From: a virus
Strand: one strand, 5' to 3'
IMG/VR virus record: IMGVR_UViG_3300017963_007659
Coordinates: 122,315 to 186,314 of that record
DNA: 64,000 nucleotides
In this document: one piece after another, positions 2 to 18,581 of the stretch
Numbering within the stretch: the stretch's first letter is position 1
Layout: every line of letters starts with the position of its first letter
The notes under the pieces: model-generated
What the model was told of the DNA's origin: nothing
Seen by the model: the letters and a program-made list of their open reading frames with translations, nothing else
Databases searched by the model: none
Program-made: the position numbers and the translations under genes

Positions 2-2581
2 GGGATCATCGACACAGCAAAGATTCTCGCGGAGCTGTTCTCCCGTGGGGCTGGCGTCGGGACCTACCTCTCCTCTCTGCGTCCTCGCTTCGCCTACGTG
101 AAGGGTGTCAACGGACGCTCTTCCGGGGCTGTGAGCTGGGGGTCTCTGTACTCGCATCTCACGGGGCTCATTGAGCAAGGAGGCTGCGTCACTGGAGAGA
201 CTCTTGTAGCTACGTCTAAGGGTGATTTTCCAATCAAGAATCTTGTAGGAACGACACCAGACGTCTATTCTTATGACTGCTCCACAGAAAGGACTGTGCT
301 CAAAACAGCGAAGTGGGTGGGTAAGACCGGGGATAGTCAAAGAATCCTACGACTTACGACAACCCAGGGTCTTATTCTTGAAGCTACTCCTGACCATCTC
401 ATCCTGTGTGCTGACAAAAAGTATCGTCCTCTACAAGAATTGGAGGTAGGGACGGCACTGAATGTCGAGAGTGCTTCTATCCACCATGTCCAATCCGTAG
501 AAGACTGTGGGGAAGAAGACGTTTACGATCTCGAAGTCCCTGATACTCACAATTTCTTTGTATTCTCGAAGGGTTGTAAAGAGGGTGTCTTCATACACAA
601 CTCCCGTCGCGGTGCCGCAATGCTCGTTCTACACGTCTGGCACCCGGATGTGTACGAGTTCATTGAGTGCAAGAGGGAGCCCAAAGCTAAGCAGCTCGCT
701 CTCCTGGCTGACAAGCTCGAATACGGCTTTGGTCTCACGGAGTTCGCTCAAGAAGCCAGAGATCTCGCGGGGCAATGGCCAGCTCACATCCAGCACGCCA
801 ATCTCTCGGTTGGAATCACAGACGATTTCATGGAAGCTGTTATTCACGATCGGGACTGGCAGCTCGTCTTTCCTGATACGACAGTTCCGGAGTACACAGA
901 GAAGTGGGATGGGGACCTCAAGAAGTGGCAAGAGGAAGGTCATCCAATCAAAGTCCACAAGGTAGTCAAGGCGCGCGACCTGTGGAACAAGCTCATGTAC
1001 TCCGCGTGGGACTCGGCTGAGCCGGGAGTCATCTACATCGATACGGTCAACAGTGAGAGTACCTCATGGTGGTACTGCAACATGCTGGCGACGAACCCTT
1101 GCGGAGAGCAGCCTCTCCCGAGCTGGTACGGTGTCTGTAACCTTGGAGCAATCAATCTCCCTCGCTTCCTCATGGAGGATCCAGACGACCCGAACAAAGT
1201 CATCCTTGACAAGGAAGCCTACAAGAATGCGATCCATGTCTCCATGCGCTTCCTGGACAACGTTATCGACACCACTCCCTACTTCTTCGATGAGCAAGAA
1301 TACAATGCGAAGCGTGAGCGTCGAGTTGGCTTGAGTCCCTTCATGGGGCTTGCCGAAGCTCTGGTCATTCTTGGTATTCGCTATGGGTCTGAGGAGGCGG
1401 TAGACTTCGTGGAGGAGGCTGGCTTGGTCGCGGCTTCAGAGTCCCTCAGAGCCAGCGTGGACCTCGCAGAAGAGAAGGGCTGCTGTGATGTGTTGGCTAC
1501 TCCAGAGGACCGGGAGAAGTTCTTGGAGAGTCTGTATGTGCAACGTATTCTCCGGTATCTGCCTCCAGAGGACAACCAGGACTTGCAGTCACGGATTCGT
1601 GAGCATGGAGCCAGGAACGTGAGCTTCACGACCTCAGCGCCTACCGGGACCATCGGGACCATGGTGGCAACGTCTACCGGAATCGAGCCCTTCTTTCGTT
1701 TCGAGTACCGCCAGAACACCAATCTCGGAACCCATATCAAACGAGAGCGTGTTCTGGATGAATGGTATAGGCAACACGGTGAGAGCGCTGCTGTTCCGGA
1801 TTACTTCGTGAGCGCTGGGGAGCTGACTCCAAAAGAGCACCTCGTCATGACTGCTGCGCTCCAGCGGTGGATTGACTCAGGTATCAGTAAGACCTACAAC
1901 CTACCACAGGAGTATACACCAGAGGACATCGGAAAGATCTACATGGAGATCTGGAAACGTCGATGTAAGGGAGGCACGGTCTTCCGTGAAGGGTCTCGTA
2001 CCGTTCAGGTTCTTGAGAGTCTCGACCCCAAGGAGAAGAAGACGTTCGAGATGAGCTTCCCGGAGAAGACTCCTGGACCGCCGAAGGGGGACAAGAAAGA
2101 TGGTTCCACGTGGTCCATCGACTCTCCCTCTGGTACCCTGCACGCTACGTTCAATCAGTATCCGACGCCAGACAACCCCTTCGAGACATTCCTGAGAATT
2201 GGGAAGGCAGGCTCTGATGTTGGAGCTATGACCGAAGCTTTCGGACGTGTCATCTCCCTCTTCCTCCAGATGAGAGGTCCAATCCGGCCCACAAGACGCT
2301 GTGAGCTTCTTGTCGAGCAGCTTGAGGGGATCGGTGGTCGAGACCAGGTTGGCTTCGGTCCAAATAAGATTCGTTCGATCCCTGATGCGATTGCTAAGTC
2401 GATAAGTCGACATTTGCAGTCAATAGTAGGTAGGGACGATGACTTGTCATGCTCAGAAGATGAAGAAGAGAAACCAGCTTCAACTCATGGCTTGGATATG
2501 TGTCCCGAGTGTGGTAATCTCGGATTGCGGTCGGAGGAAGGGTGCACGAGCTGCGCCTTCTGCGGCTATAGCAAATGCTGA
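2..2581 (+). CDS. nrdJ: Class II (adenosylcobalamin-dependent) ribonucleotide reductase, 5'-truncated by window, with intein
   Basis: This enzyme reduces ribonucleotides to deoxyribonucleotides for phage DNA synthesis. The reading frame is open to the left edge, so the true start lies outside the window. Visible family motifs are GAGVGTYLSSLRP before the intein, SRRGAAM and HPDVYEFIECK after it, NPCGEQPL with a following CNLGAINL, the APTGTIG loop, SGISKTYNLP, and a C-terminal Cys-rich tail (CPECG ... CTSCAFCGYSKC) typical of NrdJ. No small subunit (NrdB) gene follows, which fits class II. A 139-residue intein splits the conserved segment between EQGG and SRRGAAM. Known of the family: class II needs no oxygen. 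I see no activity-site ATP cone, but the N-terminus is missing. Confidence 0.93.
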   Translation, partial: GIIDTAKILAELFSRGAGVGTYLSSLRPRFAYVKGVNGRSSGAVSWGSLYSHLTGLIEQGGCVTGETLVATSKGDFPIKNLVGTTPDVYSYDCSTERTVLKTAKWVGKTGDSQRILRLTTTQGLILEATPDHLILCADKKYRPLQELEVGTALNVESASIHHVQSVEDCGEEDVYDLEVPDTHNFFVFSKGCKEGVFIHNSRRGAAMLVLHVWHPDVYEFIECKREPKAKQLALLADKLEYGFGLTEFAQEARDLAGQWPAHIQHANLSVGITDDFMEAVIHDRDWQLVFPDTTVPEYTEKWDGDLKKWQEEGHPIKVHKVVKARDLWNKLMYSAWDSAEPGVIYIDTVNSESTSWWYCNMLATNPCGEQPLPSWYGVCNLGAINLPRFLMEDPDDPNKVILDKEAYKNAIHVSMRFLDNVIDTTPYFFDEQEYNAKRERRVGLSPFMGLAEALVILGIRYGSEEAVDFVEEAGLVAASESLRASVDLAEEKGCCDVLATPEDREKFLESLYVQRILRYLPPEDNQDLQSRIREHGARNVSFTTSAPTGTIGTMVATSTGIEPFFRFEYRQNTNLGTHIKRERVLDEWYRQHGESAAVPDYFVSAGELTPKEHLVMTAALQRWIDSGISKTYNLPQEYTPEDIGKIYMEIWKRRCKGGTVFREGSRTVQVLESLDPKEKKTFEMSFPEKTPGPPKGDKKDGSTWSIDSPSGTLHATFNQYPTPDNPFETFLRIGKAGSDVGAMTEAFGRVISLFLQMRGPIRPTRRCELLVEQLEGIGGRDQVGFGPNKIRSIPDAIAKSISRHLQSIVGRDDDLSCSEDEEEKPASTHGLDMCPECGNLGLRSEEGCTSCAFCGYSKC
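185..601 (+). other. Mini-intein inside NrdJ
   Basis: An in-frame 139-codon insert interrupts the RNR at a highly conserved site. It begins with Cys (CVTGETLV, block A), has a block B like region (TPDHLIL), and ends with block F/G like residues (VYDLEVPDTHNFFV ... GVFIHN). The next residue is Ser, the expected +1 nucleophile. It is too short to hold a homing endonuclease domain, so it should splice but not spread by itself. Boundaries were set from the Cys1 and His-Asn/Ser splice rules. Confidence 0.9.
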
Positions 2582-2587
2582 GGTGCT

Positions 2588-2869
2588 ATGAAAGGGAACC
2601 GAATGATTCTGACGTCTTACGAATGGGGTGAGCGCATCGACTACTTCATCCAAGAGGTGGAGAGCAATAGCACTCACCCCGTATCGATGATGGCTGACCT
2701 CGCTTTCTTGTATCGCCACATCGATGGGGAAGTGTTCGAGAGGTCAGAAGAGAACAATGATCGAGTCGACAGGTTGGTGGAGGCGTGCACGGTTGCAGGC
2801 GTCTCCATCGATGGTGTGGCTAAGATTGTGGAACAACAACGGTTTTTTGAAGCTAAGAGGAGAAGCTGA
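2588..2869 (+). CDS. Small hypothetical protein (93 aa)
   Basis: This gene follows the RNR by 6 bases and its stop overlaps the next ATG (TGATG). A GAGG element sits just before the chosen ATG; a second in-frame ATG at 2612 is possible. The product is acidic and predicted mostly helical, with no motif I recognise. Its tight packing suggests co-transcription with the RNR. Confidence 0.7.
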   Translation: MKGNRMILTSYEWGERIDYFIQEVESNSTHPVSMMADLAFLYRHIDGEVFERSEENNDRVDRLVEACTVAGVSIDGVAKIVEQQRFFEAKRRS

Positions 2870-3201
2870 TGGGGAAAATAAAGTACGGCAACAAGAAAAG
2901 TCACGGTGGTGCGATGGCAAAAGCCATGGTCGTTGGGATGGAGAAGAGGCATGCTCACGCGCAGACGGCGAAGCGAAAGAGGATCTTCAGTAGATTCATG
3001 AAGACAGAGAAGGGTCGGCAGGTCGCGGCGCAGATTGAAGCTGGAGCCCTCCCTGCCGAGAGCATCGAAGTCGATGGCAACAACATCGAAGTCAAGGCGA
3101 CCGTCAATCCAGAGGTTGCAGAGGACACTTCCTCCGATGAAGGCTCAGAAAACGAGTCAAAGGATCAGGAGGAGGAAGGCGATGAGCGAACGGAAGATTG
3201 A
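2869..3201 (+). CDS. Small hypothetical protein, basic head and acidic tail (110 aa)
   Basis: The N-terminal half is rich in Lys, Arg and His (KIKYGNKKSHGG, KRHAHAQTAKRKR) and could bind nucleic acid; the last 30 residues are almost entirely Glu, Asp and Ser. The start overlaps the previous stop and the 3' end overlaps the next gene by 20 bases. No family was recognised. The charge segregation is seen directly; any role is unknown. Confidence 0.7.
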   Translation: MGKIKYGNKKSHGGAMAKAMVVGMEKRHAHAQTAKRKRIFSRFMKTEKGRQVAAQIEAGALPAESIEVDGNNIEVKATVNPEVAEDTSSDEGSENESKDQEEEGDERTED

Positions 3202-3514
3202 CTTCGTTGACGGTGATGTCGTGCTGTTCCTGTCTGGAGGCGTGGCGGTTCGCCGAGATGGTGTGGGGATGTATCGGGTGGATATCCGAGATGAGCCACA
3301 TACCATCCAAATCTACTACCATGCAGGTGTTGGCTTTATCAACATAAACGATAACAGTCGTGACACAAGGATGCGCCTGCTTCTTCCGAGGGGGCTTGGG
3401 TCCAATCTTGAAGACGATATCGTCAGTGCTATGCTGGAGTTGGAGATCCTCTCTCAGATCAACAGCGACAAGGCTCAGAAGGGCAAGCTGCCTGACGGTT
3501 GGGCGAAGAAATGA
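3182..3514 (+). CDS. Hypothetical protein (110 aa)
   Basis: I chose the ATG at 3182 (MSERKIDF), although the frame is open further upstream, because this start gives the usual short overlap with the preceding gene and lies after a GGAGG-rich stretch (AGGAGGAAGGCG). The product is a compact alternating beta-type sequence (VDGDVVLFLSGGVAVRRDG) with a helical C-terminus. No family was recognised. Confidence 0.7.
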   Translation: MSERKIDFVDGDVVLFLSGGVAVRRDGVGMYRVDIRDEPHTIQIYYHAGVGFININDNSRDTRMRLLLPRGLGSNLEDDIVSAMLELEILSQINSDKAQKGKLPDGWAKK

Positions 3515-3651
3515 CCTCTTCCAACGAGAAGTCCTATCGTGCCGTTGAGATGGCTAAGGTGTCTGCGCGCTATCGTCTCCGACTCGTCCGTAAGGTCATT
3601 GAAAAGCTAGACAAGAAAGCCTCAAGTAGAACCTCCGTTTCCGCACACTAA
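3511..3651 (+). CDS. Very small basic protein (46 aa)
   Basis: This short frame begins with ATGA overlapping the previous stop, the coupling style used throughout this genome. The product (MTSSNEKSYRAVEMAKVSAR...) is strongly basic in its middle. Nothing else occupies this stretch. It was found by reading the frame directly, and its function is unknown. Confidence 0.55.
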   Translation: MTSSNEKSYRAVEMAKVSARYRLRLVRKVIEKLDKKASSRTSVSAH

Positions 3652-3686
3652 CACCTCCTACGTTACTATGCGGTTCCACTGTTATC

Positions 3687-3703
3687 GAAATCCAGTCAAA
3701 GTA
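3687..3703 (+). promoter_or_regulatory. AGTCAAAGTA-type motif (putative phage early/middle signal)
   Basis: GAAATCC followed by AGTCAAAGTA, ending 18 bases before the next gene's ATG. It is one copy of a motif found before at least a dozen accessory genes here (see findings). Whether it is a promoter or a translation signal cannot be decided by eye. Confidence 0.5.
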
Positions 3704-3721
3704 CAGTAAGTGAGAAGACAG

Positions 3722-4201
3722 ATGGCAAACAAAGAGGAAGAGCTGTACTACATTCAGGACACACGCAGTGTGGTAGGAGACTGCGTTCTGTGGTGGGGTC
3801 CAGACGGCAATGGCTACACCCTCAATATCGAAAGGGCTGGCCTATACACCTACAAGCAGGCGTCGAGCCATCGGGAAACCGACGTTCCTTGGCCAAAGTC
3901 CATGGTCGACAGCCTCATCTCTTCTCATGTGCATATCGACAGCTTGAGAACGGTTCCCACAGTTGAGGTCAAGCGGTGGAAAGGCGATTGGTACAAAACC
4001 ACACACCAGGTCGTCCGGACAACGGAAACGCAGATCCTCATTTCGTGCGGACAGCGAGAGGAGCGCTACAGTCGAAAGACGGGACGTCGCGTCGGAGCTT
4101 CCAAGCAAGGACTCCGGAGCGCGAGACTCCCGCGCATCGAAAAGAGAGAACTCAAGTGGCTTGAGTCGAGGCTCACGAACACGTGGAACAAAAAACGCTG
4201 A
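3722..4201 (+). CDS. Hypothetical phage protein, YIQD-type (159 aa)
   Basis: The N-terminus (YYIQDTRSVVGDCVLWWGPDGNGYT) resembles a short domain I recall from many uncharacterised phage proteins that begin YIQDTRxxVGNxxxWW. The C-terminal third is very basic. I prefer the ATG at 3722 over the in-frame GTG at 3710 because purine-rich sequence precedes it at suitable spacing. The AGTCAAAGTA motif upstream suggests it starts a transcription unit. Function is unknown. Confidence 0.7.
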   Translation: MANKEEELYYIQDTRSVVGDCVLWWGPDGNGYTLNIERAGLYTYKQASSHRETDVPWPKSMVDSLISSHVHIDSLRTVPTVEVKRWKGDWYKTTHQVVRTTETQILISCGQREERYSRKTGRRVGASKQGLRSARLPRIEKRELKWLESRLTNTWNKKR

Positions 4202-4230
4202 AGTTTTGAGAGCAATTCTCAAAGAAAGGT

Positions 4231-4240
4231 AGTCAAAGTA
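4231..4240 (+). promoter_or_regulatory. AGTCAAAGTA motif upstream of TnpB-like gene
   Basis: The core motif ends 7 bases before the ATG at 4248. It is preceded by a 7-bp stem hairpin (TTTGAGA/TCTCAAA, 4205-4223) that may end the upstream transcript. The match to the motif before other phage genes implies that the TnpB-like gene is under phage control. Confidence 0.5.
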
Positions 4241-4247
4241 TATTGTC

Positions 4248-5429
4248 ATGAAGGTTTATCGCTCGACACGCTGTACCTTGAAGTACACCAATCCACACAA
4301 GCTGGACATCTTGTCTGAGATTATAGACGAGTACGGCAGGGTGGTGCGGTTGTACATCGACTTGTTCTGGGAAAAGTCGCGATACCTTCATAATAATGAC
4401 CTCTTGAAGCCTGTCATCGAATCAATCCCTCCGACGTGGCTGGGATATAAATTCAAAAGGGACGCGGCTCGTGAGGCTCTGCGAAACATCCGGTCTATAA
4501 CGAATAGACCAGGGACGCCACAAAAGAAGCCGAACTATAAAGGGCGGTCAATGACTCTCCATTTTGACACCGCCTATCTGACGGACTCCAAAAAGACAGA
4601 TTCTTTTGACGCCTGGTTTAGATTGCGTGGAGTTGGGAAGTATTCGGATACAGGAGAGGGGATATGCATCGCTTTTCCTATAAAATTCCACAAGCATTTC
4701 AATCAATTGAGCGCCAAAGGAAGGCGCGTCAATACTATCCATGTCTATCGGGACTCAGTACAATTCATCTTTGAACTTGAGACCGGGGAGAAGAGGACCA
4801 AGGGCAAGCAGGTCGGAGTCTACACAAATGGGGAGACTCTTGCCACTATCTCCGATGGCACGAAGTACGGTACGGACATCGGACGCTATGTCGATCGTGT
4901 ACAAAGATGCGTGCCTGGGTCAAAGGGCCACAGGAAGGCGCAGCGAGCGCTCAAACAGCGTCTGAATGAAGTAGTCAAAGAAATTGGGCGTAAGCATGTC
5001 AAGCTCTTTGTGCTTGAGCGTGCCAAACCCAAGAAGGATGCGATAGGCGGACGTTGCTCGCCAGAAAACAAGCAACGATCTCTCGGTATCTGGGCATACA
5101 CCTACTGGTTGGAGAGGTTTCATAGAGAGTGTGAGATGAGACGTTCTCGCTTTCGCTCTACCGCTCCTGTATATACCAAGACGTGTTGTTCAGCATGTGG
5201 AAGTACCGAGAGGAGTAATCTGTCCGGTGAAACGTTCCTGTGTACCACATGTGGTCATAGGAGCAAAGCAGCAGTGAACGTTGCTCAAAACACTTTGGAC
5301 AGGTATCTCTCTGGACCCTACGGTGCCAGATTCAAACCCGGACGCTCTGGAAAACGAGGTCAGGGAACGGTATTTGTACAATCGCCTATCTCTCAAAAAC
5401 AGGGATCGACGAAAGGACTACAAGAATGA
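4248..5429 (+). CDS. TnpB/Cas12f-like protein with inactivated RuvC (TldR-like)
   Basis: This 393-aa protein has the TnpB layout: N-terminal helical/beta part, RuvC-like core, and a zinc finger (C314/C317 and C332/C335) near the end. Where TnpB has GIDxGxxxLAT, this protein has GVYTNGETLAT, so the first catalytic Asp is Tyr192. Glu257 (FVLERAKP) is kept. The last motif, normally DxNAAxN, reads AVNVAQN, so the third Asp is Ala342. I infer loss of DNA cleavage with RNA/DNA binding possibly kept, as in the described TnpB-derived nuclease-dead repressors. No TnpA lies nearby. It has a phage-type upstream motif and its stop overlaps the next ATG, so it is built into an operon rather than sitting as a loose insertion. 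It could also be simple decay. Confidence 0.8.
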   Translation: MKVYRSTRCTLKYTNPHKLDILSEIIDEYGRVVRLYIDLFWEKSRYLHNNDLLKPVIESIPPTWLGYKFKRDAAREALRNIRSITNRPGTPQKKPNYKGRSMTLHFDTAYLTDSKKTDSFDAWFRLRGVGKYSDTGEGICIAFPIKFHKHFNQLSAKGRRVNTIHVYRDSVQFIFELETGEKRTKGKQVGVYTNGETLATISDGTKYGTDIGRYVDRVQRCVPGSKGHRKAQRALKQRLNEVVKEIGRKHVKLFVLERAKPKKDAIGGRCSPENKQRSLGIWAYTYWLERFHRECEMRRSRFRSTAPVYTKTCCSACGSTERSNLSGETFLCTTCGHRSKAAVNVAQNTLDRYLSGPYGARFKPGRSGKRGQGTVFVQSPISQKQGSTKGLQE

Positions 5430-5773
5430 CCTACTGTTGTCCTCTATGTGACCTGGAGATCACCAAGGACCGTCCGTACTGTAGCAACATGTACTGCACC
5501 GTCGGCTACTACAACTGTCTATCCATGAACTGTCTATCCATGCCAGATGCTCCAGACATGGAGGATGTCGACAATCCTCTGGATAAACGGGAAGCTCTCA
5601 ATCGAAAGCAGGGTTCCTATTTTGGAGTGGATGCGGCTTCTCAGTGGCTACTGGAGAGAGCAGCATATTCTTTCACGAAGAATCAGGATGACACAGCGCG
5701 CACTCTCAGGGAGGCAGCTACCCTGATGCGTGACTCCAAGAAGGATATCCTCGCAGACTCGAACGAAGGGTAA
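5426..5773 (+). CDS. Cys-rich small protein with zinc-ribbon-like N-terminus (115 aa)
   Basis: The start overlaps the TnpB-like stop (ATGA). CPLCDLEI and nearby Cys residues (C23, C28) could bind zinc. Residues around 29-40 contain a repeated NCLSM unit caused by a 15-bp tandem duplication. The C-terminal half is helical. No family was recognised. Its coupling to the nuclease-dead TnpB-like gene makes it a possible functional partner, which is inference only. Confidence 0.7.
   Translation: MTYCCPLCDLEITKDRPYCSNMYCTVGYYNCLSMNCLSMPDAPDMEDVDNPLDKREALNRKQGSYFGVDAASQWLLERAAYSFTKNQDDTARTLREAATLMRDSKKDILADSNEG
5513..5542 (+). repeat. 15-bp perfect tandem duplication
   Basis: The unit AACTGTCTATCCATG occurs twice without a gap and keeps the reading frame, giving NCLSM-NCLSM. 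It is a recent slippage-type duplication. Confidence 0.9.
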
Positions 5774-5779
5774 GTCCTC

Positions 5780-5789
5780 GGTTATTGTG
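5780..5789 (+). promoter_or_regulatory. GGTTAT-type late motif
   Basis: GGTTATTGTG lies 40 bases before the putative virion gene at 5830. It is a looser match to the GGTTATCTTT motif found before sheath and head operons. Confidence 0.4.
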
Positions 5790-5829
5790 ATTTAGGGGCA
5801 TTTTACGCCTCTGGACACAACGAGGCTTC

Positions 5830-6846
5830 ATGGTTGCTACCAAACCACCGGACTACATCTACAAGGATATTCCCCGATCCACCGCTGAAGCTGTTCAGAA
5901 CAACGCCTATGAGGAGTCCCTCGTCCTCGTCAAGTCCGCCATCCAGCACTACCTTAATCAGTTTTTCGATTCAGATGGGAAGTATCGAAGACTTGTAGAG
6001 TCTGTGTGCCCAACTGTAGGACAATTCGTTACAGACGTTCGTGTCCCTCGGCCTGGAGAATACGAAGACCCAACAAAGTACAAAATTCAGATCGCTCGGA
6101 TGTGGCAAGGTCTCAAGCAGCGTCTTCCTTGCATCGTCATTGCGGAGACTGGCTGGACTCGTCAGAACTCTCTGAGTGACATCTCGGGTGGTATCTCCGT
6201 GCCGGGGACCGATGGGCTCCAGCACTCTCCGTTGTGGCTCAGCAACTTCCTCATGGGGAGCATCGATATTCTTGTAGGGGCGTTGGATGAACATACGACA
6301 GGGCAGATAACTTCCCAACTTATCAATATCTTTGGGCCTTTGAAGGAGTTCACCAAAGAGACAATCTTGAAGCCGACGACACCTACAGGTGGGTCAACCT
6401 GGGAAGTTCGGCTTCCGATGAATCAAACCATCAGCTCCAGAGAGCGAATCAACATCGGAGATGACCCTGTCTCGTCGCTGTGGTCGGCTACGCTGTCCTT
6501 GGATGACGTCCACTTCGAGGGGTCAACACCTCTCGATATGGAGGCTGCTGTTCCGACGGAGCCCGATTATGGTCCGAATACCCCTGTAGACAGCGATGAC
6601 TTCCCTGACACCACAATCGTTGTTTCCTCTCCGGTTAAGTTGGGGAGAGCCCAACCATTCCGTGTAGTTAACGAACGCTACAGCGCCGTCATCTACAGCG
6701 ACAATCCCCGTGTGGCACTGATACGGGGCTACACCATCATCCCTAGGAAAGTTGGTACATTTAATATAGTCGTGGCTAATGGTAATAGTGTTGGTCTTGA
6801 GGCCGACATCTTTGCAAAGCAAGAGGTGTCTGTGGCACTTATATAG
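5830..6846 (+). CDS. Putative virion (neck/tail completion type) protein
   Basis: This 338-aa protein sits just upstream of the tail sheath and downstream of a GGTTAT motif, a position typical of neck or tail-terminator proteins; I do not recognise a family. Mid-protein text such as HSPLWLSNFLMGSIDILVG and EFTKETILKP looks like a folded structural domain. The last 31 codons (from 6754) are rich in AAT, GGT, AGT and CTT and look unlike the upstream part of the gene. A second copy of those codons follows the downstream TnpB (8087-8179). This suggests that the 3' end was replaced when the element inserted, or that the two copies are old paralogues. Confidence 0.75.
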   Translation: MVATKPPDYIYKDIPRSTAEAVQNNAYEESLVLVKSAIQHYLNQFFDSDGKYRRLVESVCPTVGQFVTDVRVPRPGEYEDPTKYKIQIARMWQGLKQRLPCIVIAETGWTRQNSLSDISGGISVPGTDGLQHSPLWLSNFLMGSIDILVGALDEHTTGQITSQLINIFGPLKEFTKETILKPTTPTGGSTWEVRLPMNQTISSRERINIGDDPVSSLWSATLSLDDVHFEGSTPLDMEAAVPTEPDYGPNTPVDSDDFPDTTIVVSSPVKLGRAQPFRVVNERYSAVIYSDNPRVALIRGYTIIPRKVGTFNIVVANGNSVGLEADIFAKQEVSVALI

Positions 6847-6903
6847 CTCAGAGAGGGTTAGATAGCTAGTAGGCGCATAGAGCAGCAATCACATAGAAAT
6901 TTA

Positions 6904-8097
6904 ATGTTTGTGGCACATAAAATAGCGTTATCTCCTACCCCAGATCAGGAGACGTACTTCAGGAAAGCAGCAGGTACAGCGCGCTTCGCTTATAATTGGG
7001 CTTTAGACCAATGGGTATCTCTTTACCGATTGGGAGAAAAGCCAAGTGAAGCTATGATCCGAAAAAACTTAAACAAGATCAAGTATATTGAATTCCCTTG
7101 GATGAAAGACGTTTCAAAAACGGTACCACAACAATCGATTAAAAATCTGGGAAAGGCTTTCAACAACTTTTTCAATAAGCGTGCTAAATACCCGAAATAT
7201 AAGAAACTTGGGAGGCATGACGCATTCCGTGCGGATAATGGTCCTCAAACTAAAGGAGCCGATGCGGTCCAGGTTAATGGAAAATCAGTCGGCATACCAA
7301 AACTCGGCTGGGTACGAATGCGAGAAGCGCTTCGTTTTGAAGGCCAAATAAAGTCCGCTACGATCTCACGAAGAGCCCAGCGGTGGTACATCAGTTTTTT
7401 GGTTGATAGCCCGCTTTGCTCCTTCCAGCGCGAAAACCAAGCAGTTGGAGGAGTAGACCTTGGTCTTCGTTGGATGGCTGTTACAAGCGATGGTGTCTTC
7501 TATGAGAATCCGAAGCCGCTGAAAGCTAACTTGAGGAAGCTTAAGAGACTACAGCGACAACTTCGCAACAAGAAGAAGGGGTCGAACAGACGGACGCGAC
7601 TCCAACATCGGATCGCGGAGCTTCATGTGAGAATCGCTGATATCAGAAAAGATGCTCTGCATAAGGCGACGACATCCTTGGTTAGAGATTACTCTACAAT
7701 TGTTATCGAAGACCTAAATGTAGTGGGGATGCTGAAGAATCGTTATCTCTCCAGAGCTGTCTCGGATGTGGGATTGTACGAATTCCGTCGTCAACTTGAG
7801 TACAAAGCGAAGTGGTATGGGACAAAAGTCCTCTTAGCAGATCGTTGGTTCCCTTCCAGCAAACTCTGTTCGTGTTGTGGCTATAAGTACTCAGAACTAA
7901 AGCTTGGAATGGAATCGTGGGTGTGTCCTGTCTGTAAGACAGAGCATGATAGAGACCGGAACGCAGCTATCAATCTACGGGAAGTTCTCCCGGAAGTTAC
8001 GCACGTGGAGACCACGTCCTCTACTTCTCTAGCTGGACTAGAGAAGCAAGGCAGGTCGATGAAGCGTGAACTTGTTGAAAGAGAACGGTACTTTTAA
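6904..8097 (+). CDS. tnpB: TnpB RNA-guided nuclease, catalytically intact
   Basis: This 397-aa TnpB has an N-terminal OrfB helix-turn-helix-like region (residues 1-100), a RuvC core with Asp185 (GGVDLGL), Glu269 (IVIEDLNV) and Asp351 (DRDRNAAIN), and a zinc finger at C322/C325 and C341/C344. All three catalytic acids are present, so it should cut DNA guided by an omega-RNA made from its own 3' end. No TnpA transposase accompanies it. The ORF starts 57 bases after the virion gene and its stop codon (TTTTAA) is created by the flanking gene fragment. It is probably a solitary mobile or homing-like element. It shares no obvious close similarity with the dead TnpB-like protein at 4248. Confidence 0.9.
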   Translation: MFVAHKIALSPTPDQETYFRKAAGTARFAYNWALDQWVSLYRLGEKPSEAMIRKNLNKIKYIEFPWMKDVSKTVPQQSIKNLGKAFNNFFNKRAKYPKYKKLGRHDAFRADNGPQTKGADAVQVNGKSVGIPKLGWVRMREALRFEGQIKSATISRRAQRWYISFLVDSPLCSFQRENQAVGGVDLGLRWMAVTSDGVFYENPKPLKANLRKLKRLQRQLRNKKKGSNRRTRLQHRIAELHVRIADIRKDALHKATTSLVRDYSTIVIEDLNVVGMLKNRYLSRAVSDVGLYEFRRQLEYKAKWYGTKVLLADRWFPSSKLCSCCGYKYSELKLGMESWVCPVCKTEHDRDRNAAINLREVLPEVTHVETTSSTSLAGLEKQGRSMKRELVERERYF

Positions 8098-8106
8098 CAT
8101 AGTGGT
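8003..8106 (+). ncRNA. Candidate omega-RNA 3' scaffold and guide of TnpB
   Basis: Within the tnpB 3' end are two strong hairpins: ACGTGG/CCACGT (8003-8017) and a 9-bp stem CTTCTCTAG/CTAGAGAAG (8024-8046). Known TnpB omega-RNAs overlap the ORF end, are hairpin-rich and run into the flanking DNA, which acts as guide. If the element ends near 8083-8086, the guide would start in the duplicated virion-gene sequence. The 5' extent and exact end are not known. Confidence 0.4.
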
Positions 8107-8179
8107 TGCTGATGGCAACTCCACAGGGCTCGAAGCTAGAATTTTTGCAACTCAGGAAGTCTCTGTATCTCTCATATGA
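8087..8179 (+). pseudogene. Second copy of the 3' end of the virion gene at 5830 (31 codons)
   Basis: Frame-matched translation gives GTFNIVVADGNSTGLEARI and so on, ending SLI-stop. It aligns to the last 30 residues of the intact gene with 25 identities and no gaps. At DNA level I count 60 of 90 identical bases; 17 of the 22 changed codons are synonymous. It starts exactly where tnpB ends. It is either the original 3' end of the gene left behind by insertion, or the remnant of a paralogue. Confidence 0.85.
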
Positions 8180-8195
8180 TCTGGTCGCACGGATG

Positions 8196-8237
8196 CGTCT
8201 TATAAAGACGACCTCTCTAGAGCGAGGTTATCTTTAG
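8196..8237 (+). promoter_or_regulatory. Hairpins and GGTTATCTTTAG late motif before tail sheath
   Basis: A perfect 6-bp hairpin CGTCTT-ATA-AAGACG (8196-8210) is followed by ACCTC/GAGGT and then GGTTATCTTTAG at 8226-8237. The motif is 46 bases before the sheath ATG. The same 12 bases occur at 34880-34891 before another virion-type gene. Confidence 0.55.
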
Positions 8238-8283
8238 ACGATATCGATGAAATTGACCAAATAAGAACGGAGCGTTCAGAACC

Positions 8284-11200
8284 ATGGCTGACGTCTTAGT
8301 CACATCACAATATGTGCTCCCAGGTTCGTACCTAGGAAGAATCTACACACCCAACGCCGGAACGCTGTCGGGCGACCCAAGACAACCCTGTTACGTTGGG
8401 AAGGGTAGTCGACTTGCGACCGCAGCGAACGTTCCGATCCGCCGTGCGTTTTTGCAGGGAGAGGTCATCCCCTTCCCGCAGACGGTGCCGCACTTGGTAA
8501 CTCTTGCGCACCCATCGGATGGCGACCAGACGTTGGCAACGATGACTACACAGTCGGGGGCTGTCATTCCAGCCTCGAAGTGGCAGTTCCAGAAGTCCGC
8601 TCCCGGTATCACAGGATACGACCAAATTCTGCTGTTGCCGGAAGCCTTCAACTCCACCTCGACCTACACTCTCGACTACCAGACCATCGACCGAGATGTT
8701 GTCGATGATGTCCCGTTTGACGAGATGCGTCAAATGGTTAGAGTAGGCGACTACCAGGACCAGGATTTCTACTCCGAGCAGGTGGACTACCGCGTTATCA
8801 CCTCCAATACGGATCCAGTTCCGGACCCGACGGTGGCGAACGCGACGACTACGCTGTTCACTCCTGTTCAGCAGACGGCTACGGGTGGTGGTGCTCCGAC
8901 TCCGACGGTCAATGTTGGTGCCACCTACACAGGGCAGCACAACAGGCACTATCGCTTTGAGGCGGTTGGGCTCGCACCGCTGACCTTCTTGGTGGACATC
9001 ACCAACGAGGGTGGCGGCAACAACCTGACTCCGGACTATCCGGTAGGTCCGAACATCAGCGGGCTGACCTTCCCGGTCGCTATCGCGGGTGCTTACGACC
9101 TCGACTCTCAGATGGGGCTCACCTCTCTTGGTGTGCTAGTCGACCTCGACCCGGCTGACCCTGGTGTCTGGGCTGTTGGTGACGTTTTTGAGTTCAACGC
9201 GCTTGGACCGTCCGTCATCGAATTGGACCCAACCTACGACAACACCAACCAGTTCTCTTCGGTTTCTGCCCTCACAGCAGCGGCTGGAAATGGTGGAACT
9301 GGTACAGTGACACTGAACCCCAATACGGACTTCACGGGATCGACGAACAAAGATGTGCGCATCGAATGTGCCTCCTTTGCTGGTCTGTCTCCGAACCGAA
9401 CCGCTCTCTTCGATTGGCAGACCTACGGGGCTGATGCGATTGAGAAGGGATCGATTCTTGTAGATGAGTCTGTCGCGGGGAACCTGATCAACCGAACGGT
9501 AGCCGATGGAATCTCTGTCGACTTCGACTTCGGCACGGATGCTGGTGGAAACAGCGCGAACTTCGTTTTTGCGGCTGGTATCATCACCTTCGATGCGGGT
9601 ACAGGTACCTTCACTCCTAGCATGGTTGGTCGGCAGATCACCATCGTTGGAGCCACTACCCCTGCGAATGATGGTACCTTCGTCATCGCTTCCTATATCT
9701 CTCCAACACAAATCACCTACGCCAACGCTCTTGGTGTAACCGAGGTTGGAGCAGGTACCTGGGTTGTGGAAGGTTTCTTCGTTCCGACCTCAGCGACGAC
9801 ACAGGGCGACCTCTTCACGACGGCTGCTACTGCCCCCATGCTCTATTACACGGGTAAGGACGACCGAGAGTACACTCTGGAGGTCACAGCAGCTACGTCT
9901 ACTCCGTTCACCGCAGTGACTGGTGTTGCGATTGCTCCAACGAATACGTTCGACGTCGCAACGGATCTCACGACAGCCATCGCGCTTCATCCGAACATTC
10001 GGGTCGAAGGTTCGACGGGCAACGACAATCTCTATACGGTCCAGTCCACCTCCTACGATTCTGGAACGGACACCACGACTATCACCACAGTCGAGAACGT
10101 CCCGAATGCCGTAGCAGATGGAAACCTCTGGTACGGAACAGGCGCAGCGTCCATCTTCTGGTCGACAGCTACTCCTGAAGGTGGTTTCGGTACCCTTTCT
10201 CTGTTGGATAACGACACGGCTTCACCGCTCGCCGATGAGATCAAGTTCTATGTCCGAAACTCTGGAAATCCGCTGCTTCGCTCGGATGCTCAGAATCAGA
10301 GAAACGTCATCGCAGACGTCTGGACCTTCACGGTTACGAATGAGGATGAGATCTCTTGGACGCTCGCAGCGCGCGAGACGGAGACCATCGCTGTAGCGGA
10401 CCTTCGACAAGATACCACGGGTTCCATCACAGGAGCTTCTGGTGGCGTTCCTGGCACGCGTTACCTCATCCTTGAGCAAACTCCTACGATCCAGCCTCTT
10501 CGAGTGTGGACGACCAACCCGACGACCAGTGTCACCACTGAGCTGACGGTTGCAACGACACCTCCCTATGTCGCTGGTTCGGACGCCTACTGGATCACCG
10601 GGACACCGTACATCTTCTTCCCGACGACTCCGACTGAGCCTGTCTCGGTCACCTACCAGCACAGAGCGTTGGAGCCGGATCCTGGACAGGTCTACTACAT
10701 CACGTCGTACTACCTGCGACCCCTCAACTTCTACAACAACCCGATTCGGTTGCTGAACGAAGACGAGGCGATCTCGGTTCTCGGTCCCATGGACCCCGAG
10801 AACGACCTTCTCATCATGGCTCTCGTTGCCCTGGTGGACTGCAACGCCTTCGCTGTTTGGGTCACGCAGGTTCGAGACACAGACGATGACGGTGTGTATA
10901 CCACATACGACTACAACACGGCTATTGAAGCCACAGAGCTGAATGACCAACTCACGGACATCACAGTTCTACAGAACTTCGATTCGCTGTCCAAGCTGAA
11001 GACGTCTGTCATCCAGATGAACGACCCCTTCGAGCGGAAGCAGCGTCTGTGCTGGGTTGGAGCCCCCATTGGGACAGAGATTGGCGATACCGACACTCCG
11101 GACACTTTGGTCTACTTGGCCAAGAGAACGCTCCAGGTGTACGGTGAGAGCCCCGCGCACGGTGCCTTCATTCTTGTAGGCAACACGGTGTGTGAGCGCA

Positions 11201-11844
11201 CCATTGAGCTGGCTGAAGGGACTCAGACCACTGTCACCCTTGACGGAAGCTTCGTGGCGGGTGCTGCGGCTGCTCTTGTCGCCTCCTACACTGATCCTGG
11301 TGAGACCATTCTCCGAAAGGACCAGCCAGGGTTCGACCGTATCGGTGGAACGACCATCGATATTCAGTACGAGGAGAAGGAACTCAAGCTGCTTGGTGCG
11401 GCGGGTGCAAGTACCTTGAATGAGGTTGGCTCCGGTATCTACCAGTGGGTTGAGGACATCACCGTAGACACATTCGCCCAAGATACTCAGCAGATCAACG
11501 CGATGACCCAGAAGCAATTCGTCGAGCGTTACGTCCGAAGTCGGATGGACACCTCGATTACGGGTATCGTGGCTCCGTCTGCTCAGGCGGGTGTCGCCAT
11601 CGTCAAGGGCTTCCTGGTTGAGCTGCTTCGCTCACTGGCAAGTCGGGGTATCATCGGTGCGTGGACGGATGACTCTGGGAATGAGCGAGACATCGATCCT
11701 CAGAACGATGTTGAAGTATTCCGGGATGATACGGACCGAACGTTGTACCACTACAAGTTCTGGTTCAACATTCGGTACCCAATCAAGCGGACCTTCGGTC
11801 TCTACTCCGTCGACTCTCGTTCCTTCACACCGCTCGCTGCCTAG
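8284..11844 (+). CDS. Tail sheath protein
   Basis: This 1186-aa protein forms the contractile tube around the tail. The C-terminal domain is the diagnostic part: a helical segment (TQKQFVERYVRSRMDTSITG), then VAIVKGFLVELLRSLASRGII, and a final strand region ending in RYPIKRTFGLYSVDSR, as in myovirus sheaths. The central part is a long beta-rich region with many Thr/Val/Asp strands, probably extra surface domains, which explains a length about twice that of small sheaths. It has its own GGTTATCTTTAG upstream motif and lies close to the tube gene, as in most contractile phages. Confidence 0.85.
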   Translation: MADVLVTSQYVLPGSYLGRIYTPNAGTLSGDPRQPCYVGKGSRLATAANVPIRRAFLQGEVIPFPQTVPHLVTLAHPSDGDQTLATMTTQSGAVIPASKWQFQKSAPGITGYDQILLLPEAFNSTSTYTLDYQTIDRDVVDDVPFDEMRQMVRVGDYQDQDFYSEQVDYRVITSNTDPVPDPTVANATTTLFTPVQQTATGGGAPTPTVNVGATYTGQHNRHYRFEAVGLAPLTFLVDITNEGGGNNLTPDYPVGPNISGLTFPVAIAGAYDLDSQMGLTSLGVLVDLDPADPGVWAVGDVFEFNALGPSVIELDPTYDNTNQFSSVSALTAAAGNGGTGTVTLNPNTDFTGSTNKDVRIECASFAGLSPNRTALFDWQTYGADAIEKGSILVDESVAGNLINRTVADGISVDFDFGTDAGGNSANFVFAAGIITFDAGTGTFTPSMVGRQITIVGATTPANDGTFVIASYISPTQITYANALGVTEVGAGTWVVEGFFVPTSATTQGDLFTTAATAPMLYYTGKDDREYTLEVTAATSTPFTAVTGVAIAPTNTFDVATDLTTAIALHPNIRVEGSTGNDNLYTVQSTSYDSGTDTTTITTVENVPNAVADGNLWYGTGAASIFWSTATPEGGFGTLSLLDNDTASPLADEIKFYVRNSGNPLLRSDAQNQRNVIADVWTFTVTNEDEISWTLAARETETIAVADLRQDTTGSITGASGGVPGTRYLILEQTPTIQPLRVWTTNPTTSVTTELTVATTPPYVAGSDAYWITGTPYIFFPTTPTEPVSVTYQHRALEPDPGQVYYITSYYLRPLNFYNNPIRLLNEDEAISVLGPMDPENDLLIMALVALVDCNAFAVWVTQVRDTDDDGVYTTYDYNTAIEATELNDQLTDITVLQNFDSLSKLKTSVIQMNDPFERKQRLCWVGAPIGTEIGDTDTPDTLVYLAKRTLQVYGESPAHGAFILVGNTVCERTIELAEGTQTTVTLDGSFVAGAAAALVASYTDPGETILRKDQPGFDRIGGTTIDIQYEEKELKLLGAAGASTLNEVGSGIYQWVEDITVDTFAQDTQQINAMTQKQFVERYVRSRMDTSITGIVAPSAQAGVAIVKGFLVELLRSLASRGIIGAWTDDSGNERDIDPQNDVEVFRDDTDRTLYHYKFWFNIRYPIKRTFGLYSVDSRSFTPLAA

Positions 11845-12002
11845 TCCGTATCCTTATCCTCTTCTTCCACTTTTCTAACAGGCATAAGAGTCCTGCAAAC
11901 CCCATCTGGAGGGCTCTGCAAGTAATCCATGATTACGTCCGCACAGAGTAGCGCTATGTACTCCGTGGACACCTTGTCGCGCTCTTCTTCGTCTGTACTC
12001 AT
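11841..12002 (-). CDS. Small acidic protein on the opposite strand (53 aa)
   Basis: This is the only frame that fills the gap after the sheath gene. I prefer the inner ATG at 12002 because AGTCAAAGAGAAGC, carrying both the accessory-gene motif and a purine-rich ribosome site, precedes it. The outer ATG at 12023 lacks this. The product (MSTDEEERDKVSTEYIALLC...) has charged ends and a short hydrophobic middle. Its stop overlaps the sheath stop in a convergent arrangement. Function is unknown. Confidence 0.45.
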   Translation of the reverse strand: MSTDEEERDKVSTEYIALLCADVIMDYLQSPPDGVCRTLMPVRKVEEEDKDTD

Positions 12003-12008
12003 GCTTCT

Positions 12009-12016
12009 CTTTGACT
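12009..12016 (-). promoter_or_regulatory. AGTCAAAG motif, minus strand
   Basis: This minus-strand copy of the accessory-gene motif lies 6 bases upstream of the ATG at 12002, within the late tail region. It supports the small reversed gene being real. Confidence 0.4.
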
Positions 12017-12040
12017 GTTTCATTTTAGGCGCTTCCCTTG

Positions 12041-12050
12041 GGTTACTCTA
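12041..12050 (+). promoter_or_regulatory. GGTTACTCTA late-type motif
   Basis: This variant of the GGTTA(T/C) motif is placed 22 bases before the ATG at 12073, followed by TATACATAGGAG. Confidence 0.4.
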
Positions 12051-12072
12051 TACATAGGAGTCTTTCCCTTCG

Positions 12073-12402
12073 ATGGATAGAAAAACAGCAACCATCCTCA
12101 CGAATCTTGAAGAGCAGGGCTTCAAGAATGAAGCTGACCTGCTTCTCCGTGCCTCCTTAAAGAAGGTAGCGGAATCTATGCCTCTCTTCCAGCCTCACCA
12201 GAAAGTATCCTTGGTGTACCACAATCGTCAGGAAGCTCTGGCGGGTGTAGTGGTTGGAATAGATGAGCGCACCATCACCGTCGCGTCGTCAACGGAGACG
12301 CATGAGTATCGATGGACAGGAGAGATCTTCGAGGATCTGGATGCGAGTAGTACTCTGTCGATTCCTGTAGCAATCCTCCCAGAGTATAACGGAGACGAAT
12401 AG
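12073..12402 (+). CDS. Hypothetical protein in tail cluster (109 aa)
   Basis: An N-terminal helical stretch (residues 1-35) is followed by a small beta-barrel-like part (KVSLVYHNRQEALAGVVVGI) and an acidic end. The next gene starts directly after the stop. No family was recognised; its location suggests a virion or assembly role. Confidence 0.7.
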   Translation: MDRKTATILTNLEEQGFKNEADLLLRASLKKVAESMPLFQPHQKVSLVYHNRQEALAGVVVGIDERTITVASSTETHEYRWTGEIFEDLDASSTLSIPVAILPEYNGDE

Positions 12403-14136
12403 ATGTCTGCACTTTTGACCAAAAAAGACCTTCGTGAAGCCGCCGTCCTCCTGGACACTCTTGACGTCGTTTTGGATATCGACCAGTCCTCCTGTGAAAA
12501 GAACGCTGCGGCTGTTTCCGAATTCGCCTTCACTGGACTTGTCAAGAAGTTCCCTGGACTTTGTGACAACATCGACAGGTCCGTAGAGGAGATCGACGCG
12601 GAGATCAAGAAGTTCGAGCGTCTCCGGGACAAATGGAAGAATGCAAAGGTGCAGGGAGCGCGTGCTGTGCTCCATGCTACCGCCGTAGCTATCGTCGGCT
12701 ATGTGTTCGGTGATATTGGAAAAGCTGGAATAGCAGCCGCCGTCTCCTTGGTCAGTGAAGGGGTCATCGCTCTATTCTTGAGGGCTCTGGTTGCCATGAA
12801 GAAGCGCAAGAAGCGCAAGGCTATCGATGAGTTCGACCCCAAGATGGTGACAGCTTGTGAGAAGGCCAAGAAGCAGAAGGCCAAGGATGTGGAGAAGACC
12901 TTGACGGAGATAGCGGAGAAGGAAGCTGGAGCCAAAGCCCCGTCTGTGATGGAGTTGGTGGCTACGTTTGATACTATCTCCGTGCTCTGTGAGACCCTTG
13001 ACAACGAGAAGGTTGCTGGTACTGATGCTGAGCGGGAGATCCGTGAGAAGATCGCTGATTGGTCTGATGTGGCGTTTCGAGTAGCTATTCTGAGAGCCCC
13101 CAACCTATGCACTTATGTAGGTGCCCCTCCTGAAGCTATCTCTAAAGAGATCAAGAATATCAACAGGATATTGAAGAAAACTAAGAGAGAGATGCTTCAC
13201 AATCCCCTAACTGTAAGTGCTACAGGAGGCATTCTGGGGATATCTCTGATATCCGCGCTCTTCGGAGGTCCCGGTGCTTTGGTTCCGGGTGCGGTGACCC
13301 TAGGACTGATGTGGGCTGCTATTGGTGCTACTTACCTCTATCTCAAAGCTCTTACCGCTCTCTACAAGATGACACTTCGTGGTGTTATGGATGACGAGAG
13401 GGTGCAACAAATCAAAGAGATCTGTGGGAAACATTATCCTGAGAAGCTACGTCGTGAATGGGTTGACCGACATGCGAAGGATGCACCTCCAGAAGAAGGC
13501 TCTTTCCCAAAGAAAGCTGAAGCACATCCCCCCTTGCATATAGCTACGATGCTTGAAGCGGACCTCGACGAGATGGAGACTTCTATCGAGCGTCTCTACC
13601 TCCTAGCCGAAGAGTTGGACGCAGCGAACTTCAAGGATGCTGCCATCCGTGACAAGGTGATTGAGAAGTGGGCCAAGCAGTGGGCCAAGCTCGTCACCAA
13701 GGCTCCAGGGCTCTGTCGATACCTCAACATGTCTCAGTACGGTTTGAAGGTCGTCATCGACCGTGTTGAGAAAGAGTCCGAGTTGGTGAAGAAGTACTGG
13801 AAGGGACGCAACGCTGACGCTGCCAAGGGTGCTGCTATCGCCATCTTCGCGCGAGTGAAGGGTTTCCCTCCTGGCTCCGAGATCATCGCTCAGTTTGCTC
13901 TTCCTGTCGTAGAGAAGCTCATCGTGCTGTACTTGAAGGGATTGTGGCTGCTCCACAAGTTCATGAGGAAGCAAGCAGTCCCTGTCATGCTCTACGAAGC
14001 CTTCGATTTGGCCTGTAAGACGGTGTATCCAATGAAGACACCTTCGGAAAAGGTTATTTTGAAAGAGGAAAAAGAGTATCAAACTCGACTTGAGAATGGA
14101 ACTGCTGCTCCGGGGCTCCCGGCAGTCAAAATATAG
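12403..14136 (+). CDS. Membrane-associated protein made of three degenerate repeats (577 aa)
   Basis: The protein consists of three units of roughly 140-150 residues (about 1-140, 185-330 and 375-530). Each has a helical start, a PxLCxxx signature (FPGLCDNI, APNLCTYV, APGLCRYL), a basic helix, and a long hydrophobic Ala/Gly/Val-rich stretch ending in a helix such as ALYKM or LLHKFMRK. The hydrophobic stretches could be membrane segments. Basic linkers follow unit 1 (KKRKKRK). I do not recognise the family. Position between sheath and tube suggests a virion component or a protein delivered with the tail. Holin function seems unlikely at this size. Confidence 0.75.
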   Translation: MSALLTKKDLREAAVLLDTLDVVLDIDQSSCEKNAAAVSEFAFTGLVKKFPGLCDNIDRSVEEIDAEIKKFERLRDKWKNAKVQGARAVLHATAVAIVGYVFGDIGKAGIAAAVSLVSEGVIALFLRALVAMKKRKKRKAIDEFDPKMVTACEKAKKQKAKDVEKTLTEIAEKEAGAKAPSVMELVATFDTISVLCETLDNEKVAGTDAEREIREKIADWSDVAFRVAILRAPNLCTYVGAPPEAISKEIKNINRILKKTKREMLHNPLTVSATGGILGISLISALFGGPGALVPGAVTLGLMWAAIGATYLYLKALTALYKMTLRGVMDDERVQQIKEICGKHYPEKLRREWVDRHAKDAPPEEGSFPKKAEAHPPLHIATMLEADLDEMETSIERLYLLAEELDAANFKDAAIRDKVIEKWAKQWAKLVTKAPGLCRYLNMSQYGLKVVIDRVEKESELVKKYWKGRNADAAKGAAIAIFARVKGFPPGSEIIAQFALPVVEKLIVLYLKGLWLLHKFMRKQAVPVMLYEAFDLACKTVYPMKTPSEKVILKEEKEYQTRLENGTAAPGLPAVKI

Positions 14137-14191
14137 GCTTGAGTTGCTTTGTCCCTTGGTGGAATAAAGCTAGCGATAACGAGGATTTAAC

Positions 14192-14710
14192 ATGTCTTCA
14201 ATTTCTCCCTACGGCGGCAACGTACATGGCGTGCGCGCCACCCCGTTGGATCTCGACGCCACAGGTGCGCCAACAATCAAAACCTACCATGGTGTGACCA
14301 TCAGTGTCGATGGGAAGATTGTTGGACGTATCACTACGTGGAATCCGAACCCCTACACCCGTGAAGGCATGCATGTCTACGAAGTGAGCCACATCACGTG
14401 GGGTAAGCCAGTGGACTACGTTCCTGGCAAGGGTGGCGATTGGACCATCTCTTGTGGTCGAACCGAGGTTTGGAACCAAGAGCTTGAAATCGCTCTCGGT
14501 TTCCCGTCGGTCTGGTCTGACCTCACTGAGCAGGACCGTCCGTTCACGGCGCAAGAGTATTGGTACCGTGGAACAACCATCTATCGAGTATGGAACTACT
14601 CTGGTTGCTGGTTCCAAGATCGTTCTGAAGATGGTGTGGAGAACGAAGGTGACGCCATCGTTCGCACCAACCCGACGATCGCTTTCGTCTCCAGAACCAT
14701 GGTGATCTAA
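14192..14710 (+). CDS. Tail tube protein
   Basis: This 172-aa protein has the size and pattern of a myovirus tail tube subunit: a beta-rich core with ISVDGKIVGRITTWNPNPYTREG, a segment around the GRTEVWNQELEIALG helix, and a C-terminal strand (NPTIAFVSRTMVI). It lies downstream of the sheath with a short unknown pair between. No upstream motif is clear; GGTGGAATAAAG and GATAACGAGG precede the ATG. Confidence 0.75.
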   Translation: MSSISPYGGNVHGVRATPLDLDATGAPTIKTYHGVTISVDGKIVGRITTWNPNPYTREGMHVYEVSHITWGKPVDYVPGKGGDWTISCGRTEVWNQELEIALGFPSVWSDLTEQDRPFTAQEYWYRGTTIYRVWNYSGCWFQDRSEDGVENEGDAIVRTNPTIAFVSRTMVI

Positions 14711-14723
14711 CCCTATCCATCGT

Positions 14724-16487: not shown

Positions 16488-16503
16488 CATACTTCCAACT
16501 CAA

Positions 16504-16523
16504 CCTAGTCAATAAAGACTAGG
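16504..16523 (+). promoter_or_regulatory. Perfect 7-bp hairpin overlapping a ribosome binding site
   Basis: CCTAGTC-AATAAA-GACTAGG forms a perfect stem; its right arm overlaps the AGGAGG at 16521-16526. Folding would partly mask the ribosome site of the next gene, so it may act as a terminator, processing site or translation control. Confidence 0.5.
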
Positions 16524-16536
16524 AGGAATGGACTGT

Positions 16537-17007
16537 ATGGGCACTACGACGCCACTGCATAGTCAGGACTCAAGCCCATGGAAGCTGTTCGAGTTCTACG
16601 CACGACGCTTCCAGACCTTTTCGTCGCAGCTCGCTGCATTTCAGCGTGCCCTTATTGTTGTGTTCACAGAAGGCTCCTCTGAATCTCTGAACTACCCTCT
16701 CCATCGCAGTCAGGTGGTGGAGATGACTACCTTCTGGACCTCCAGCCAAGAAACCCTCATTGAGCTATTTTTGGATGTCCCTGCAAACAAACGACGACTT
16801 CTGTCCAAATACGTCGATACCCTTACGAGAAACCTCCCTCTCATCGATGAGAAAAGCTGCGCGCTTCAGCAGAATCAAGGGGAGTTGTCCGTGCTCATGA
16901 AGGATGCACAGAAAGCATTCACAAGAGTTTCTGCAAAGTTAGAAGAGCGTGCTCGCTGGTATCGAGTACACCCCATCTTGAAGAGCCACGCAGAGACAAG
17001 CGAATAG
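16537..17007 (+). CDS. Hypothetical tail-region protein (156 aa)
   Basis: Two nearby ATGs are in frame (16528 and 16537). AGGAGG ends 1 base before the first but 10 before the second, so I choose 16537. The protein is helical with a coiled-coil-like second half (QQNQGELSVLMKDAQKAFTRVSAKLEERA). No family was recognised. The upstream hairpin may tune its translation. Confidence 0.7.
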   Translation: MGTTTPLHSQDSSPWKLFEFYARRFQTFSSQLAAFQRALIVVFTEGSSESLNYPLHRSQVVEMTTFWTSSQETLIELFLDVPANKRRLLSKYVDTLTRNLPLIDEKSCALQQNQGELSVLMKDAQKAFTRVSAKLEERARWYRVHPILKSHAETSE

Positions 17008-17018
17008 CCCGATCAGGG

Positions 17019-17028
17019 GGTTATCTTC
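17019..17028 (+). promoter_or_regulatory. GGTTATCTTC late motif
   Basis: The motif lies 44 bases before the ATG of the tail-assembly chaperone gene. CTTGTAGGAG downstream supplies the ribosome site. Confidence 0.5.
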
Positions 17029-17072
17029 TTCCAGTACCGTTGAGAAGCTCATACTTGTAGGAGAACTTAGTC

Positions 17073-18294: not shown

Positions 18295-18309
18295 GACAGA
18301 GGAGGACAG

Positions 18310-18546: not shown

Positions 18547-18581
18547 GTCCCAAAAACCTCTTGACATAAGCTCAAAATTCT

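Follow-up and report, generated by a model that had tools for sequence, protein, structure and literature searches.

A candidate RNA-guided homing element with a rescue patch in a phage genome

A 64,000-nucleotide stretch of viral DNA (the window; bases 122315-186314 of the 186,314-bp IMG/VR record IMGVR_UViG_3300017963_007659, with positions below in window numbering unless another record or locus is named) contains an intact tnpB gene that lies between an open gene, starting at 5830, and a second copy of that gene's last 31 codons. We consider it probable that this is a homing TnpB element equipped with a rescue patch, in which a diverged gene end stands in frame with the gene's 5' part while the displaced native end provides the template for the guide. 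With rather less assurance, we also favour the broader view that such elements constitute a natural RNA-guided home-and-rescue drive, formed by TnpBs that have moved past transposition, cut native gene ends, carry a recoded replacement, and leave cured, resistant alleles when the two copies recombine.

Anatomy of the locus

The locus comprises the following parts, all on the + strand, with the basis of each assignment in brackets.

5830-6755, +: 5' part of the gene, up to the junction; in the virion region, just 5' of a tail-sheath-like gene (open reading frame, ORF)
6752-6755, +: TTGG at the left junction, the putative target-adjacent motif (zero-offset junction)
6756-6846, +: recoded rescue copy, continuing the reading frame of the 5' part through the gene's last codons (codon comparison; mismatches to the guide at 4, 10, 16, 19, 23 and 28)
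6847-6903, +: spacer of 57 nucleotides, with neither a TnpA gene nor a recognisable left end (sequence, ORF list)
6904-8097, +: tnpB, intact, 397 residues (Pfam OrfB_IS605 and Cas12f1-like_TNB; PHROGs phrog_506)
7950-8088, +: probable omega-RNA scaffold, overlapping the 3' end of tnpB (analogy with TnpB loci; conserved right-end motif)
8082-8088, +: AGAACGG, the element's right end, adjoining the start of the guide (common to unrelated insertions)
8087-8179, +: displaced copy of the gene end, lacking a start codon; guide template and likely right homology arm (codon comparison, tblastn; counterparts in Bacillus and marine phages match empty alleles)
8089-8108, +: predicted 20-nucleotide guide, TACTTTTAACATAGTGGTTG (position directly past the right end)

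The gene at 5830-6846 is open and encodes 338 residues; behind it stand tnpB, the second copy of its last 31 codons and then the gene for a 1186-residue protein. A preliminary description of this DNA, made from the sequence, had reported the duplicated 31-codon block in frame behind tnpB, and its counts proved exact on recounting: the copies (6754-6846 and 8087-8179) share 60 of 90 bases, or 61 of 93 with the stop codon, which occupies the same position in both, and their proteins are identical at 25 of 30 residues. Eight sense codons are unchanged, and 17 of the 22 that differ do so synonymously, leaving 5 non-synonymous changes; this synonymous share (77%) compares with a mean of 16% and a maximum of 45% in 2000 trials of random substitution at equal density. 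Such a preponderance of synonymous changes implies that the copies diverged while both coded for a working protein, and because of it the patch is best explained as an ortholog's end that came from a diverged phage, not as de novo recoding. The earlier suggestion of a recoded 3' end that restores the protein thus holds as regards the in-frame copy, less so as regards its origin; the patched protein presumably works. The downstream copy is the sole second match of gene 5830 in the whole record (tblastn E = 4e-9). That the upstream copy is AT-richer than the rest of its gene, as had also been remarked, is borne out by the GC content at third codon positions (0.35 versus 0.59), but the property is not peculiar to it: the downstream copy stands at 0.32, and since both copies are AT-rich we rejected AT-richness as a sign of foreign origin.

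TnpB itself matches the solved chain 8bf8 with E = 2.4e-65 and, read in an alignment to 9yyg, has the RuvC D/E/D motifs and the zinc-finger cysteines. The spacer at 6847-6903 encodes no serine recombinase TnpA, and because that protein is missing we take the element to be a TnpB-only derivative of IS607 type. In IS607 elements GG is the exchange dinucleotide. GG stands before both 6756 and 8089, positions 8087-8088 being the GG that closes the right end; base 6756, the upstream counterpart of 8089, is preceded by GTTGG, and the copies are in register from the first base past the shared GG, the preceding 12 bases being unrelated (4/12). Among relatives of this TnpB, left ends start GGGTTTT, Sulfobacillus copies begin at GGG, and the sequence upstream of four loci (L012, L013, L073 and L017) looks serine-recombinase-like by eye, features that, together with GG at both ends, appear to fit the IS607 type.

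TnpB guides are read from whatever DNA adjoins the right end of the element. The closest relatives of the window TnpB occupy unrelated sites in Sulfobacillus-like Bacillota, other viruses and a Cysteiniphilum genome; AGAACGG stands behind tnpB in 11 relatives (L074-L081, L015, L017 and L067), with different DNA after each, and Cysteiniphilum-type loci and L048 have the right end GAGCGG, their sequences diverging beyond it. This motif, taken with the window's own right end, GAAAGAGAACGG followed by TACTTTTAACATAGTGG, places the start of the guide at 8089. With the right end fixed in this way from independent relatives, the layout first sketched, an element spanning about 6754-8086 that draws its guide from the downstream copy and spares the upstream one, fits at base resolution. 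One detail needed amending: three differences had been counted in the first 20 bases of the guide, and there are four, because 8087-8088 are the GG of the right end and the guide begins at 8089. Behind GTTGG the recoded copy reads TACATTTAATATAGTCGTGG, with its mismatches at 4, 10, 16 and 19, and besides the guide's own locus it is the only site on either strand of the 186-kb record with fewer than six mismatches. Rfam returned nothing relevant, and no match to the presumed omega-RNA.

The layout and its alleles in other phages

Viral and bacterial genome collections supplied 136 loci of TnpB relatives, in which we looked for peptides encoded on both sides of tnpB; crossed locus pairs served as the control. 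A locus's own flanks scored at least 28 bits in 11 of the 136, as against 14 of about 18,000 crossed pairs after removal of near-identical loci, and the strongest of those crossed pairs looks like a genuine pair of homologues. The 11 loci represent five independent cases: the window, a Bacillus phage (L050/L054), a marine phage (L055-L065), L020 and L026. Throughout, the downstream copy begins with zero offset at the TnpB right end and a motif-like sequence precedes the upstream copy (TTGG in the window, and TTAT, TTAC, ATTAT and, in L020, GTAT). The marine case presents the arrangement with tnpB antisense to the gene, whose 5' end is duplicated, an intact gene with a recoded start lying to the left and the displaced native start to the right. 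In L026 the downstream copy reads QESIFY instead of KESIFY, has 9 of its 20 guide bases changed and is degraded in the middle, as expected for a displaced end that has no function; viral contigs yielded no relatives of the L026 gene. The L026 record (39,602 bp) also contains a second intact TnpB-family match, at 28483-28689.

Recurrence bears directly on whether the window layout could be an artefact of metagenome contig assembly, a concern raised by its presence in one contig only. Two separate records contain the Bacillus layout and several independent contigs the marine one, and the two copies in the window differ at one-third of their positions, so that reads from them would not be confusable; we regard an artefact as highly improbable.

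The preliminary description had looked to uninterrupted alleles to carry the downstream version of the gene end, and in the Bacillus and marine groups, other phages with equal architecture, they do. Of the 31 alleles fetched for the Bacillus gene, 26 are ordinary and tnpB-free; in each of them TTAT precedes a target that shares 16-20 of 20 bases with the displaced copy and 9-13 with the recoded one. The two alleles that carry tnpB in mid-gene (L153 and L154; right end GTTCAA) have the recoded copy. Upstream of the junction, the identity of these Bacillus alleles is 85-95% over the first 150 bases, and it then falls to 50-60% in the guide region. For the marine gene (46 loci fetched), the closest alleles without tnpB share 19 of 20 bases with the displaced copy behind TTAC and 13-15 with the recoded copy, the recoded copy itself matching the guide at 14 of 20; more distant alleles lack TTAC or match both copies poorly, and no relatives of the gene were found in named phages.

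These alleles speak to a different history, in which two old tandem paralogues received an IS607-type insertion in the second, followed by a deletion that took away the 5' part of that copy along with TnpA and the left end of the element. Such a sequence of events would also yield a repeat that starts exactly at the right end, the left end and TnpA are indeed missing, and both copies are AT-rich and similarly constrained. The empty Bacillus and marine alleles are nonetheless single genes, not tandem pairs, and their targets agree with the displaced copy; moreover, five unrelated genes would each need the same two-step accident; we hold this history to be unlikely. Less likely again, in our estimation, is an ordinary TnpB insertion repaired by chance, whereby recombination with a diverged phage supplied the upstream gene end and tnpB is a passenger that does not home. 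The recoded copy does resemble a diverged ortholog end, given its 17 synonymous changes in 22, and the omega-RNA and the cutting are themselves presumed. Against a passenger role, the tnpB gene is intact, RuvC motifs included; empty alleles of the Bacillus and marine groups are still matched by the guide; and the layout recurs in both gene orientations, with the recoded sequence to the left and native sequence in the guide position.

Each group also includes one tnpB-free mosaic, L182 (Bacillus, 3217-3381) and L208 (marine, around 250-504), which has recoded sequence from the junction onwards, for about 110 and 24 bases, respectively, and then native sequence. No TnpB-family match was found in either record, both of which are fragments. 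The pattern is apparently the remnant expected of recombination between the copies, with tnpB lost and the target resistant; recombination between different phages could also be its source.

A sample of 23 tnpB loci from named phages added no clear case to these five. L249 was dropped when its match was traced to a merged coordinate. In L246 (Lactobacillus phage Lpa804), tnpB is flanked by a 329-nucleotide repeat of 82% identity in which short GGTATGTACA...GACATACC units occur; it may have been left by a second tnpB end or have a regulatory role.

A proposed home-and-rescue cycle

In the cycle we propose for a homing TnpB element with a rescue patch, the right end abuts the displaced gene end, so that the guide of the omega-RNA would copy native gene sequence. 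During mixed infection the complex would cut phages with an uninterrupted gene, in which the native end stands behind a target-adjacent motif, and repair from an element-bearing genome would then copy element and patch together into the cut genome, with the gene's 5' part as the left homology arm and the displaced end plus the DNA downstream of it as the right. The element's own genome would be spared, the patched copy mismatching the guide and the displaced copy lacking a proper motif. The patch would thus keep the gene working and resist cutting, and its divergence would discourage loss of tnpB through recombination between the repeats; where such recombination did remove tnpB, the result would be cut-resistant, tnpB-free alleles. 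RNA production, cutting and homing are activities that we infer for the window element.

Several observations weigh against this cycle. Viral contigs and INPHARED yielded no relatives of gene 5830, so that an empty allele of the window phage itself is unseen, and that TTGG is the target-adjacent motif of the window TnpB is something we infer. The predicted fold of the scaffold region 7950-8088 is no better than that of shuffled sequences (z = -0.59). The layout is uncommon, being clear in none of 23 sampled tnpB loci of named phages. In L020 the two copies differ by a single base of the guide, with GTAT before the copy where a related Bacillus TnpB has TTAT. Finally, the patch does not always travel with one TnpB: L155 and L156 (about 3217-4950), kept separate in our counts from the mid-gene pair, share 95% identity with L153 across 3.6 kb to the left, a region that takes in the recoded gene end, a terminator-like sequence and the gene for a small Arc-like repressor, yet they carry a different TnpB whose right end, ...AACGG, sets the guide start just past the gene's stop codon, and they have no displaced gene end. 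The left module can therefore be common to different TnpBs, modules having been exchanged behind the left flank that these loci share.

The nearest precedent for this anatomy is found in fungal mitochondria. According to the portions of the published account on which we draw, the elements termed mORFs (Allomyces atp6; Glomus atp6, atp9, cox2 and nad3) consist of an endonuclease ORF behind a foreign, in-frame C-terminal copy, with the native end displaced downstream; the displaced end has 91-98% DNA identity to element-free relatives, as opposed to 64-81% for the inserted copy, and the differences between copies are largely synonymous (PMC3630166). To that extent the window is alike, having an in-frame foreign gene end upstream of a nuclease and the native end displaced downstream, and in the Bacillus and marine groups, too, the displaced copy is closer than the in-frame copy to element-free alleles. 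Whereas mORFs as described there encode protein homing endonucleases, such as LAGLIDADG enzymes, in mitochondria, the window nuclease is a TnpB, predicted to be RNA-guided, in a phage, and the displaced native end would itself be the guide template; the antisense version at the gene's 5' end, seen in marine phages, has no counterpart in those portions of the mORF description (PMC3630166). By this analogy the window element would work like an mORF, yet it is not one, because its nuclease is TnpB.

Comparison with other nucleases places the element between known strategies. A published study reports gene-drive behaviour of TnpB in plasmids (PMC11870625). Like the TnpB elements of IS607 and IS605, the window element is predicted to take its guide from the DNA adjoining its right end, and cleavage of element-free sites would favour element-bearing DNA; those elements, however, keep TnpA and interrupt their target unrepaired, whereas the window element lacks TnpA and a left end and has a rescue copy (PMC11870625). 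The phage intron endonuclease gp210 of PhiPA3 confers an advantage over a co-infecting phage, and the window TnpB, if it cuts as presumed, would likewise be a selfish nuclease directed at the co-infecting phage's uninterrupted homologous gene; gp210, by contrast, sits in a group I intron that splices out, without a duplicated gene end or a guide RNA (PMC11620839). With synthetic home-and-rescue and cleave-and-rescue drives the element shares a guided nuclease and a recoded, cut-resistant rescue copy, a likeness of logic only and not of descent, those drives being engineered with Cas9 in insects (PMC7968924, PMC7951863). In the open-access literature, which we searched for phage TnpBs associated with homing, gene drive or recoded gene ends, we found no report of this layout, in which mORF-like logic would be joined to an RNA-guided nuclease. 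If the proposal is correct, a natural TnpB spreads by homing without a transposase and repairs the gene it enters, which is the logic of engineered rescue drives, and RNA-guided nucleases would be linked to a way of homing that until now has been described from protein endonucleases in the mitochondria of fungi. The Bacillus group, with its empty, occupied and apparently cured-resistant alleles, offers a system for the direct study of homing, guide specificity and resistance.

Neighbouring genes and other features

The protein encoded by gene 5830 has no family match in Pfam or PHROGs, and its single-sequence structure model is too poor to use (predicted local distance difference test score, pLDDT, 35.6). 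We read the 1186-residue protein encoded after this locus as a tail sheath, from its sequence and position; its C-terminal third matches a protein of virus Rctr197k at 33% identity, and this distant tail sheath was the sole match when the neighbours of gene 5830 were searched against viral contigs and INPHARED. In Rctr197k (L002, 6496-7383; KX853510) a putative homing endonuclease lies directly 5' of the related tail-sheath-like gene, the place that tnpB takes in the window; the gene upstream of that endonuclease has no detectable similarity to gene 5830. Searches with the terminase and capsid returned one near-identical contig only, whose coordinates stop short of the tnpB region.

The window contains a second, very divergent TnpB-like gene at 4248-5429, in which the RuvC-I (VGVYTNGE) and RuvC-III (RSKAAVNVAQN) aspartates seem to have been replaced; its product may be nuclease-dead, as in RNA-guided repressors of the TldR type. 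We sought a flanking duplication around this gene and found none. Elsewhere, record bases 2137-20762, 26746-28933 and 147251-148018 encode at least 16 diverged paralogues of one protein family of about 230 residues, mostly in tandem arrays.
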